Made by a program: the position numbers and the translations under genes
The notes under the pieces: generated by a model
Databases searched by the model: none
What the model was told of the DNA's origin: nothing
Seen by the model: the letters and a program-made list of their open reading frames with translations, nothing else
Virus record (IMG/VR): IMGVR_UViG_3300015360_000013
Coordinates: 1 to 38,774 of that record
DNA: 38,774 nucleotides
DNA from: a virus
Strand: one strand, 5' to 3'
In this document: piece after piece, positions 12,804 to 26,093 of the stretch
Numbering within the stretch: position 1 is the first letter of the stretch
How the letters are laid out: every line of letters begins with the position of its first letter

Positions 12804-12873
12804 AAGGCTTGTCATAATATTATCTTTGTTGTATCTTCTTATCTTACAGCACATTACGTCAAGGTAGGTTCAT
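12804..12873 (+). promoter_or_regulatory. Terminase-portal gap with ribosome site for a non-ATG start
   Basis: Seventy bases with no gene. Stop codon TAG at 12865-12867 is in the portal frame, so that frame cannot extend further left. AAGGTAGG (12861-12868) lies 5 bases before ATT at 12874 and looks like the ribosome site of the portal gene. Confidence 0.55.
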
Positions 12874-15006
12874 ATTTCTTTTTATTTTCCGCCCTGGAAC
12901 AATGCATTAGAGCCTTCACAAGGTAATGTCCGTCAGTGGCTAGATAATCTATACTCTAAATTTCAGCCGATAGAACAATCTCGATGGAATCAATCTAACA
13001 TCGATACCATGTTTTATGCGGGTGCTCAAACTTTTGTTAATCGATATTTCAACTTTTCTCCCAATACTCCTTCAGGTCAGTACTATTTCAACTTGATTCA
13101 GCAGCCTGTTAATATGGTGACAGGTTACGAGAGACAGCATCGAAAGAATTTCTCTTACATCCCAACTGAGGGTGCTGATCCTAAAACGACCGACCAATAT
13201 ACAAAGCTAATCACATCTGTTGCAAATCAAGGCGCTATTCACGAGCAAAAATCTAAGGCCAAAGAATTAGCAGCAGTTGCAGGCATGTGTTTAGCTCAGC
13301 CATACTTAGATTATTCGAATGGTGACCAAGCTCAAGGCGAATTAAAAGTTAAGATCTGGGAATATAATTCATTTTTGGTTGATCCTTACTTTAGATCTCC
13401 TGATATGTCAGATGCTCAATTTGTCTGGTGTCAAGAATATATTTCTAAACATGAAGCTGAATCTAGATTTCCAGATAAAGTAAGTACAATCAGTCCAATG
13501 GCTGGGACACCTCAGCGTTATGGTAACTTCTATTTCCTTCCTGAAAACTATAACATGGCGCGCAATGACTTAATGGTCTTGTCTTATGTTTGGTATAAAT
13601 GGAGAGGCAAGAAACAAAGATTATATAGTAAGTCACGCAATCAATTCTTTGACTTTGCTAAGGGTAAAGAAGACATTGATATGGTGCTTTATAACATTCC
13701 CGATATGGAGCTTGTAACAGTTGAAGTTCCTCAATGGAAATTAGCTGTCGTTTTGAATGACCAACTTATGTATCAAGGAGAAAATCCTCTTGGAGATATA
13801 GCTTGTCCATTTGTTCCTTATTTCTGGAATTATGAACCTCACAATAATCATTACGATTTAAGAGTTAGATCTCTTGTTCGTACAATGAGAGACCCACAGT
13901 TTCTTTTCAATCATAAAGTCTTAGTCAATAATGATATTTCTGCTGCGACTATTAATTCAGGTTGGAAAAGAAAGATTGGAGCTGTTGCAAATGAAGACAA
14001 TCTTAAGAAAGGTTCTCCTGGTTATGACGTGATAGTCAATGAAGGCTATCAAATGTCAGATGTTGAAAAGATTATTCCAAATGCAGTTCCACAATCAGAC
14101 CTTGAACTTGCTGAGCAAATGTCCAATCTTATCTTTAAAACTTCAGGTATTGACTTAGAGAATTGGTCAGGACAGCAAGATAAACAAATTTCTTCTTTAA
14201 CTGCCATGATTAAGCAAGCAGCTAATCTAATGGTATTCCAGAAGTACTTTGATCAATGGGATTATTCAGATAAGCTGCTTGGCGATAAGTTACTTCTCAT
14301 CGGTCTTAACAATTGGAATGCTGCAAAAGTTTCTCTTTATATTGGTGAAGAGCCAACTCCTCATTTCTATTCAAAGATCTTTGCAAAATATCAAGTGATT
14401 GTTGAAGAATCCGATTTAACTCCAACTCAACAGAACTTACAAGCCTCTCAAATGCTTGAGATAAATCAAATATTCCAACGCGAAGTTTTCCCTCCTTCCA
14501 TGATTATTCCAAAATTGAATATCACTGGCAAAGGGGAAATTATTCCGTACCTACAGAAACAAGAAGAACAACAAGCTGCCGTTCAAGCAGAACAGCAAAA
14601 TATCCAGCATACTGTTGAAGAAATGAAGCTAAAAGAATTGATGTCTAAAATTCATAATCAATTGTCTCAAGCTCGTGAAAGAGATTCTCGTAGTGAATCT
14701 AACATTGGATTATTTGAAGAAAGAATGTCTATGATTAGCAAGAACCATGCGCTTGCATCTAAAGAAAAAATGGCAGCTCTTGCTCAATTACTAGAAACCA
14801 TTCAAAAGTTTGGTGAAGTTGAAACATTCCTCAAGTCTAATGCTTTGGATGCTATTAAAAGTGATGAAGAAGAAATTGAGAAAGAATCAAGACAAGATGT
14901 TGAAAGACAAGAAGCTTCAAAACGATTTATCGAACAGATTATGAGTAGCCAACCTTCGCAAGGTCAAAACCAGATGCAAGGTCAAGAGCCTCAACAACAA
15001 ATGTAA
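12874..15006 (+). CDS. Portal protein (P22-like podovirus type), probable ATT start
   Basis: 710 aa if begun at ATT 12874; the first ATG (13009) would give 665 aa. The 45 codons before that ATG read as protein-like and portal-like sequence (ISFYFPPW, then NVRQWLDNLYSKFQPIEQSR and WNQSNIDT) and lead into FYAGAQTFVNRYF and NMVTGYERQHRKN, a block typical of this portal group. The centre has the crown/wing segments (e.g. VPYFWNYEPHNNHYDL) and the C-terminal 180 residues are Gln/Glu-rich coiled coil. The dodecameric portal sits at one vertex, takes TerL during packaging and the gp4/gp10-like adaptors afterwards. The missing ATG is either a true ATT start or a base error. Confidence 0.88.
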   Translation: MSFYFPPWNNALEPSQGNVRQWLDNLYSKFQPIEQSRWNQSNIDTMFYAGAQTFVNRYFNFSPNTPSGQYYFNLIQQPVNMVTGYERQHRKNFSYIPTEGADPKTTDQYTKLITSVANQGAIHEQKSKAKELAAVAGMCLAQPYLDYSNGDQAQGELKVKIWEYNSFLVDPYFRSPDMSDAQFVWCQEYISKHEAESRFPDKVSTISPMAGTPQRYGNFYFLPENYNMARNDLMVLSYVWYKWRGKKQRLYSKSRNQFFDFAKGKEDIDMVLYNIPDMELVTVEVPQWKLAVVLNDQLMYQGENPLGDIACPFVPYFWNYEPHNNHYDLRVRSLVRTMRDPQFLFNHKVLVNNDISAATINSGWKRKIGAVANEDNLKKGSPGYDVIVNEGYQMSDVEKIIPNAVPQSDLELAEQMSNLIFKTSGIDLENWSGQQDKQISSLTAMIKQAANLMVFQKYFDQWDYSDKLLGDKLLLIGLNNWNAAKVSLYIGEEPTPHFYSKIFAKYQVIVEESDLTPTQQNLQASQMLEINQIFQREVFPPSMIIPKLNITGKGEIIPYLQKQEEQQAAVQAEQQNIQHTVEEMKLKELMSKIHNQLSQARERDSRSESNIGLFEERMSMISKNHALASKEKMAALAQLLETIQKFGEVETFLKSNALDAIKSDEEEIEKESRQDVERQEASKRFIEQIMSSQPSQGQNQMQGQEPQQQM

Positions 15007-24273: not shown

Positions 24274-24858
24274 ATGACAGAAGAAAAGAAAGCAAAGCCT
24301 AAAATTGCACAAACGGAAATGGATAAACTTGATGATCAATTTCAAGCATTTGATAAGAATGTTCAGGAATTAACTCGCGATAGAATGAATACAGCTCCTG
24401 TAGAAGAAAGAGAGCCTCAGACTAAAATTGCACAAGTAGATTTAGAAAAATCTAAAGATATTTATTTGAAACCTAAAAGATCGATTGGTTGCAAAGAAAA
24501 ATTTAATGAAAAGTTCCGCGATGACTACAACTTTAAAAAAGAATATGTCCATTTTACTGCAGAAAACCATGAGATTATTGGGGAATCTATTGATCTTTGG
24601 ACAAGACCATTTCCTGGAGTTCCAGCAGAAAACTGGGTAGTTCCCGTTAATACAGCTGTTTGGGGCCCAAGATATCTTGCCGAGCAAATTAAAGGTTGTA
24701 CTTATCACCGTCTTCATATGCAACAGCATACCGGAACTGGATCAGATGGAATGGGTCAGTACTACGGTGCGATGGCTGTCGATAAAACAATACAAAGATT
24801 AGATGCATTACCGGTAAGCAAAAAAAAATCAATATTTATGGGAGCTAATAGCTTCTAG
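24274..24858 (+). CDS. Head-tail region virion protein
   Basis: 194 aa. Charged N-terminal half with helix-forming repeats (AQTEMDKLDDQFQAFDKNVQ), then a conserved-looking block: RDDYNFKKEYVHFTAENHEI, IDLWTRPFPGVPAENWVVPV, NTAVWGPRYLAEQIKGCTYH. I recognise this as recurrent in related podophages before the gp4-like gene, function unknown. Probably a minor head or connector protein. Confidence 0.6.
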   Translation: MTEEKKAKPKIAQTEMDKLDDQFQAFDKNVQELTRDRMNTAPVEEREPQTKIAQVDLEKSKDIYLKPKRSIGCKEKFNEKFRDDYNFKKEYVHFTAENHEIIGESIDLWTRPFPGVPAENWVVPVNTAVWGPRYLAEQIKGCTYHRLHMQQHTGTGSDGMGQYYGAMAVDKTIQRLDALPVSKKKSIFMGANSF

Positions 24859-24869
24859 GATGGTGAATC

Positions 24870-26093
24870 ATTAATCTTTTACAAGACGTAATTACTTATA
24901 TAAGAAGGATCATAAAAAGTCCTTCTAATAGTTCTATAAGCGATAGTTTATTGATCGACTATATCAATAGATTCTGGTTAATGGATGTAGATGCAAGAAT
25001 TCAAGTTTTTGATCTTAAGTCAAAATATGCATTCCTAACCTCTCCAGGCGTTGATCAATATAATATGCCTTTATATAGCGCACAAGTCGAACCAGGTAAT
25101 CAATCAATAGCTATGTTTCCTGTTTATCAGGGATTTTTAGATCCATGCTATATAAATGGTGTTCAAGTTCCTCTTCAAACACAAAAGAATTTATTTTTTA
25201 ATTCCTATCCAAACGTTGTTCAAAATTTACAAAATGTAGAAACAGGAAATGGTGGAAGTACTTATAATTTTAATGTACCTATAATGCCAAGTACTGTTCC
25301 AACTCCTATAAATCCCCCAATCAATTGCCTTTTAAGAGGCCATGTTGATCTTACTGGGGTTATCTCTACTGGTAATAATGTAGATCCTCCATTAATAAGT
25401 GGTGCAAGAATATTAAATATTGCAAGTGATCCATTTATCTCAGACATGCCTGTTACAAGTGTATTTCCAGCAGTTTATATTACAGCAATAGCAGCAGATG
25501 GAAATAATGTGGTTGTGACAGATAGTGGACAATTCTTAGAATCTAATGTAAATTATGGTCTTTTATTATCTCCAGGGCATGCACCATTTGGCAATGTCGC
25601 CTTAAGTGGAGCAGCTCCTGTATATAGCACAACATCGAATACTATAAATTATTTGACTGGTGAAATAAATGTAACCTTTCCAGTCGCTATTCCAATTGGA
25701 GCTAATATTAGTGTCCAATGTTATTATTTTCAGACAGGATTACCAAGATCAATCCTTTATTACAATAATACTCTTACTCTTAGAAGTCCTCCTGATAGAC
25801 AATATCTTGTTGAATTGGATGCTTATTTAACTCCTGCAGCATTTTTCCAAACATCACAAGCGATCCCTTTTGGTTACATGGCTGAATATATTGCAAGAGG
25901 ATCAGCAAGAAAAATACTTTCCGATACTGGTGATTGGGAGCAATTCAATGCTTACGAGCCATTATTTAAAGAACAAGAAAGCCTTGTTCATATAAGAAGT
26001 CAGCGTCAATGGACAAACAATAGAACACAAACAATATATAGCCAAGGCTCTATTGGTGGTTTTGGCACTAACTTTGGTGGGGGAACGCTATGA
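24870..26093 (+). CDS. gp4-like head completion/tail adaptor, probable ATT start
   Basis: 407 aa if begun at ATT 24870. The first usual start codon in frame, TTG at 24951, would drop INLLQDVITYIRRIIKSPSN and ISDSL, which read directly into LLIDYINRFWLMDVDARIQV and look like the normal opening of this tail adaptor group. TGA at 24864-24866 blocks further extension. AGGA (24857-24860) is 9 bases from the ATT. The C-terminal part (RQYLVELDAYLTPAAFFQTS; YIARGSARKILSDTGDWEQF) matches the helical end of such adaptors. P22 gp4-type proteins join the portal to the tail hub. Confidence 0.72.
   Translation: MNLLQDVITYIRRIIKSPSNSSISDSLLIDYINRFWLMDVDARIQVFDLKSKYAFLTSPGVDQYNMPLYSAQVEPGNQSIAMFPVYQGFLDPCYINGVQVPLQTQKNLFFNSYPNVVQNLQNVETGNGGSTYNFNVPIMPSTVPTPINPPINCLLRGHVDLTGVISTGNNVDPPLISGARILNIASDPFISDMPVTSVFPAVYITAIAADGNNVVVTDSGQFLESNVNYGLLLSPGHAPFGNVALSGAAPVYSTTSNTINYLTGEINVTFPVAIPIGANISVQCYYFQTGLPRSILYYNNTLTLRSPPDRQYLVELDAYLTPAAFFQTSQAIPFGYMAEYIARGSARKILSDTGDWEQFNAYEPLFKEQESLVHIRSQRQWTNNRTQTIYSQGSIGGFGTNFGGGTL

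Follow-up and report, generated by a model that had tools for sequence, protein, structure and literature searches.

The pcnB gene of Escherichia coli begins with AUU. Non-canonical start codons as a kind are already known, and few have been characterised; those named in the excerpts of the literature used here are infC and sigR (PMC5472188) and cvfC1, ccpN and citZ of Staphylococcus aureus (PMC13009471). According to these excerpts, infC, the gene for IF3, starts with AUU in E. coli, AUC in Streptomyces and AUA in S. aureus (PMC5472188, PMC13009471), cvfC1 has an AUU start and ccpN an AUA start, extended Shine-Dalgarno (SD) sequences are found on infC, cvfC1 and ccpN, and in reporters the weak starts of S. 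aureus reached, in poor medium, ~10% of the output given by AUG (PMC13009471). In the same partial accounts, sigR of Streptomyces has a GTC start, through which the ratio between two proteins that interact is set (PMC5472188), and non-AUG starts are described for chloroplasts (PMC9845219).

Here we describe a portal gene that very probably begins with ATT, in a window that comprises the whole 38,774-base virus record IMGVR_UViG_3300015360_000013 (Table 1). The PHROG 156 profile matches residues 23-696 of the 712-residue frame counted from 12868 (E 8e-43; profile positions 10-663 of 681) and so spans the whole portal protein, and solved portal chains are also matched (8jov_0, E 3e-8; 9vyf_H, E 8e-5). 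Portals form twelve-membered rings, and two of the three entries have 12 copies. After the TAG at 12865, the portal frame reads GTT CAT ATT(12874) TCT TTT TAT TTT CCG CCC TGG, with the ATT placed 5 nt 3' of AAGGTAGG. ATG, GTG, TTG and CTG are all absent from this frame between the TAG and ATG 13009, the first canonical codon, which lies 45 codons past the ATT. A preliminary description of the window had reported the closed frame and the 5-base spacing, and both are seen in the sequence and its translation. The locus thus combines a codon one mismatch from ATG, where no canonical codon is available, with an SD at proper spacing. As a gene for a portal and not for IF3, it falls outside the infC type.

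Table 1. Features of the window (positions on the 38,774-base record) and of the portal genes of relatives (locus:positions)
Feature	Position	Strand	Basis or remark
Promoter-like site TTGTCA-17-TATCTT, 5' of portal	12809..12837	+	chance expectation for the whole window: 0.8 sites
Shine-Dalgarno-like AAGGTAGG	12861..12868	+	pairing energy -8.3 kcal/mol to ACCUCCUUA
In-frame TAG closing the portal frame upstream	12865..12867	+	sequence
Predicted portal ATT start codon	12874..12876	+	homologous position holds ATG/GTG/TTG/ATC/ACG/CTG/ATT starts in relatives
Portal gene	12874..15006	+	PHROG 156; solved portal chains
SD-like GGATGGTGA before second ATT-start gene	24858..24866	+	sequence
Predicted ATT start codon of second gene	24870..24872	+	conserved N-terminus; starts at the homologous place in 55 distinct sequences (with the window)
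Second gene, likely head-tail adaptor (mechanical listing: from TTG 24951)	24870..26093	+	structure model and fold matches
47-53-nt inserts in relatives	L124:2357-2404; also L058, L215, L232, L199, L197, L047, L250		~110-165 nt past portal start

Relatives were collected from IMG/VR with four queries, whose sets overlap and from which the best 80 of 283, 286, 204 and 368 were taken, and from 5 loci of bacterial genome contigs. With the window included, 248 sequences had a match and 243 had an alignable N-terminus, which gave 151 distinct leaders; left out before counting were L076, L078, L157, L093 and L158, which had no match near the N-terminus, and L081, the window's own excerpt. The start was placed by its distance to the conserved tryptophan of the PPW motif, blind to the codon found there. 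The codon at this fixed distance was ATG or a near-cognate in 146 leaders and another codon in 5; for L217, L037, L047, L153 and L240, a canonical codon one or two places off was assigned, which favours the canonical counts. Among the first 80 loci, all of which were inspected, the conserved peptide SFYYPPWNNALEP starts right after this codon, except in L022 and L047, where it is shifted by one or two codons, and in L076 and L078, which have no alignable start.

The start codons of the 151 leaders, window included, are TTG (41), ATT (32), ATG (31), ATC (21), ACG (15), GTG (9) and CTG (2), so that 70 leaders have a non-canonical start and 81 have ATG, GTG or TTG. The preliminary description had taken AUU starts to be very rare, which does not hold for this portal family. 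The 150 other distinct leaders, with their start at the homologous place, also argue for ATT 12874 in the window, and the conserved N-terminal peptide of the relatives reaches back to exactly this codon. Over codons 9-44 of the 66 uninterrupted portals with non-canonical starts, differences per pair were 7.3, 3.9 and 18.9 at codon positions 1, 2 and 3, which points to purifying selection on the protein directly after the start; the earlier view that the codons before 13009 encode portal protein is thereby sustained. Initiation at ATG 13009, with the upstream frame left untranslated, would use the first canonical codon in frame and is very improbable, given that the 45 codons before it are conserved as protein, that relatives with ATG, GTG or TTG begin at the position of the ATT, and that the residue at 13009 is mostly Leu (IDTLFYAG) in the relatives printed, whose portals do not begin there. 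An error of sequencing or assembly that masks a true ATG is hardly more credible. The window is a single metagenome record, yet ATT is found in 31 other distinct leaders, and the same ATT, ATC or ACG leaders recur across samples (for example L042/L044/L045, L067/L068/L071 and L019/L020). The repeated occurrence of non-canonical codons across many contigs makes a read error an unnecessary assumption. Two cultured and very distant relatives, Skulduggery and JC1 (20-23% identity), have portals annotated from ATG.

What is conserved at the predicted portal start is the codon and not the residue, the set being ATG and codons one mismatch away from it. Translated as an ordinary codon, the start would give Met, Leu, Ile, Thr or Val across the leaders. 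Each of the 15 Thr-type starts is ACG, though this codon makes up 17% of Thr codons in these genes; none of the 53 Ile-type starts is ATA, though ATA makes up 23% of Ile codons; and all 43 Leu-type starts are TTG or CTG, 3 of them among the five adjusted leaders. Chance values for this restriction ignore relatedness. On a FastTree tree, the leaders require at least 75 codon changes and at least 40 switches between the canonical and non-canonical classes, so the restriction has held again and again.

Start codon identity is accompanied by SD strength, taken as pairing energy to ACCUCCUUA. Median energies (in kcal/mol) are -5.6 for ATG, -6.6 for TTG, -7.7 for ATC, -8.7 for GTG, -9.3 for ATT and -10.2 for ACG. 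The motif GAGG is present in 7/31 ATG leaders, 28/32 ATT leaders, 18/21 ATC leaders and 13/15 ACG leaders, with its 3' end mostly exactly 5 nt before the start codon. A regression with phylogenetic covariance gave a difference of -3.5 kcal/mol between non-canonical and ATG starts (t -7.3; codon class p 7e-11), with similar values at assumed signals from 0.5 to 0.95. With one representative from each of 95 clusters (crude ungapped identity), the medians were -9.3 vs -5.4 (p 8e-8). Sign tests on independent tree pairs were weaker (median p of 0.039 with ATG, and of 0.09 and 0.07 with the non-canonical class). SDs of -9 kcal/mol or stronger are found in 43/70 non-canonical leaders and 20/50 GTG or TTG leaders and in none of the 31 ATG leaders, where 12.9 were expected; zero was reached in none of 20,000 permutations. 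Conversely, an SD weaker than -5 is found in 2 of the 70 non-canonical leaders, with 8.8 expected. In this family, start codon and predicted ribosome-binding site compensate for each other, the weaker codon being paired with the stronger site. The window's own AAGGTAGG, at -8.3, lies outside the GGAGG type, a point against the explanation favoured below. Several leaders look like stem-loops just 5' of the SD; fold z-scores in this region are only mildly shifted (17% below -2 vs 5-7% in control stretches), and we do not claim such a structure.

Other genes of the window served as controls, under the lenient rule that ATG, GTG and TTG be absent over the stretch from 12 codons before the aligned start to 8 codons after it. 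By this rule, 55 of 142 distinct portals are without a canonical start, as are 7 of 633 sequences in 16 other gene families with at least 8 homologues each. The large terminase was rejected as a start control, as its 13 distinct homologues each had a canonical codon somewhere upstream and the comparison was too loose. Other genes of these genomes do combine ATG with a strong SD, as in gene 22653, with ATG in 74/75 and a median SD of -9.7.

In a seventeenth family, listed from 24951, 26 of 53 sequences had no canonical start under the same rule. Inspection indicated that the conserved N-terminus extends further upstream, to ATT 24870 after GGATGGTGA. Among 55 distinct sequences, window included, the starts are ATG in 32, GTG or TTG in 13 and ATT, ATC or ATA in 10. 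ATA starts, absent from portals despite the common ATT and ATC, occur once here (L089). The structure model of the product (pLDDT 74.7) is similar to the head-to-tail adaptors of podoviruses (E 4e-5 and probability 1.00 in the viral library), and comparison with the portal-tail chains of phages VP1 and GP4 in the PDB gave probabilities of 0.97 and 0.87, at E >0.001 and low TM-scores. On this model, the gene likely encodes a head-tail adaptor. Such adaptors are present in about twelve copies. The SD trend of this gene runs in the same direction as that of the portal and is weak (-6.3 vs -4.1, p 0.09), and a link between non-canonical starts of the two genes within one genome is not supported (6/9 vs 19/45, p 0.27). 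Inverted repeats like TGTAAAGC..GCTTTACA, seen by eye, recur just 5' of its ribosome-binding site in L241, L112, L089, L082, L098 and others, and could be an RNA hairpin or an operator.

The portal at 12874 and this gene at 24870 make two ATT-start genes in the window. This would be expected if initiation in the host or phage were relaxed, such that any near-cognate codon works well and the start codon drifts neutrally. We regard relaxed initiation as unlikely, as the 16 control families are nearly always canonical and SD strength follows the codon.

We favour instead an explanation in which the rate of portal initiation is what selection maintains. The portal would be transcribed from its own promoter at 12809-12837, which would leave an RNA leader of ~30 nt. 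A single match of this kind is expected by chance, and the support comes from the shared distance in relatives, in which a related promoter-like box lies at a similar distance 5' of the portal. The well-spaced SD would hold the 30S subunit and place the initiator fMet-tRNA on the mismatched codon, so that the portal protein would begin with Met. Selection would hold initiation of this low-copy neck protein close to a single low rate, since few portal copies are needed per virion. That rate could be reached by several pairs, either ATG with a weak SD or ATT, ATC or ACG with a strong SD, and lineages would drift among them. The preliminary description had proposed that weak initiation suits a low-copy ring, which fits the exchange between codon and SD. 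Its implication of reduced output is not required, because SDs are stronger before ATT than before ATG and both designs may give similar output. The absence of ATA from portal starts counts against the clamp, which would allow this codon too.

We consider it moderately probable that portal initiation is clamped at a low rate by selection. The ATT start and the clamped low rate, taken together and loosely, have in our estimate a probability of about three in four. The broader proposal, for which the odds are only a little better than even, is that the neck-ring genes (the portal and, less clearly, the adaptor) are rate-clamped throughout the family, with the start codon as an evolutionary tuning knob that the SD follows. 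With similarly slight preference, we suggest that the codon wanders over ATG, GTG, TTG, CTG, ATT, ATC and ACG, with ATG plus a strong SD forbidden.

A switch that senses IF3, as in infC, would instead make portal synthesis respond to the IF3 level of the host. AUU, AUC and ACG belong to the class that IF3 disfavours, according to the part of PMC5472188 available. However, with 81 of 151 leaders canonical and at least 40 class changes, this reading would require repeated loss and regain of the switch. This route is not needed, and we consider it improbable.

The portal genes of relatives also carry inserts. The frame is interrupted early, at about codons 23 to 55, in 13 of the 151 leaders, and in 7 of these a 47-53-nt insert lies directly after CGG (Arg); L250 holds an eighth copy. 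All 7 have a 16-pair hairpin, though 14 of the 16 pairs change type (G-U included), so that the pairs covary strongly. A short tail follows the hairpin, and then CGN before a conserved TGG in 6/7 (CTA in L047). The second codon of the gap is a stop in 5/7, and two of the lengths are not multiples of three. In T4 gene 60, as the excerpts of PMC11194080 and PMC5009743 describe it, ribosomes bypass a 50-nt gap with a stop after the take-off codon, a stem-loop and a matched landing codon. The inserts resemble this element in layout, with a gap of 47-53 nt, a hairpin and, in 6/7, a CGG and a CGN that may correspond to the matched codons, and differ in that the stop, where present as above, is the second codon of the gap, whereas in gene 60 it is the first. 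They look like a family of gene 60-like putative translational bypass elements.

The other six interrupted leaders (L162, L173, L072, L077, L210 and L219) have inserts of ~200 nt within the first 400 nt of the portal gene. In L162, L173 and L072, the three tested, removal of the 204-215-nt insert brings the portal frame back exactly into register. The 5' flank, whose last base is T, forms a P1 of 7/7 pairs with an internal guide, T-G lies at the splice site, and G is the last base of the insert. The ~200-nt inserts thus appear to carry group I intron features in 3/3 tested, and the Rfam group I intron model had no match at gathering score in the six insert loci and L093, and none to E 5 in L173. 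Both kinds of insert fall within the same short part of a single gene family. A second class of short inserts (~30-33 nt) is found after TGGCTT in L173 and L219, after GAACAG in L210 and L077 and after CCTCCG in L078; TAA comes right after the flank, and by eye the 5' arm of the stem seems to be made up of bases from the flanking gene. In-frame stops also occur inside otherwise matching portal frames in L027 (nt 1554 past the start) and L060 (nt 2103).

The window has no tRNA gene and no Rfam family at gathering score. Elsewhere, the Rfam int-alpA RNA scores above gathering 5' of the portal in L093 (8465-8529) and L162 (9301-9368). A host assignment from genome-collection matches was rejected, the five contigs all lying in unrelated metagenome bins.

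Gene callers limited to ATG, GTG and TTG would give truncated or misplaced genes for about half of these portals. Within the family, a single gene also provides dozens of natural trades between start codon and SD strength, with which reporters could test whether evolution holds translation rate rather than sequence, and natural ATC and ACG starts in phage genes would add to the start codons that work in bacteria. The literature searched showed no start of this kind in a structural gene of a phage, nor an earlier example, at the scale of a family, in which start codon and SD co-evolve by way of non-canonical codons. As far as this literature extends, the use in a phage structural gene, the frequency (70/151) and the family-wide exchange with predicted SD strength would be new.

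The portal resembles pcnB, in the partial accounts available, as the latter is a chromosomal gene with an inefficient AUU start, and differs from it in that pcnB is a single cellular gene and not a structural gene of a phage. It shares a non-canonical start with sigR (excerpts of PMC5472188), whose codon has two mismatches and whose product is a sigma factor and not a virion protein. Like infC, as described in the parts of PMC5472188 and PMC13009471 used here, it may keep a near-cognate start for low expression, whereas infC is a cellular gene autoregulated by its own product and the phage portal codon changes freely between canonical and near-cognate. The portal is also like cvfC1 and ccpN, in which the available part of PMC13009471 describes a weak start codon combined with a strong, extended SD. 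Those codons are conserved in the genus, whereas the portal codon and its SD exchange strength across lineages, through ATC, ACG and CTG as well.
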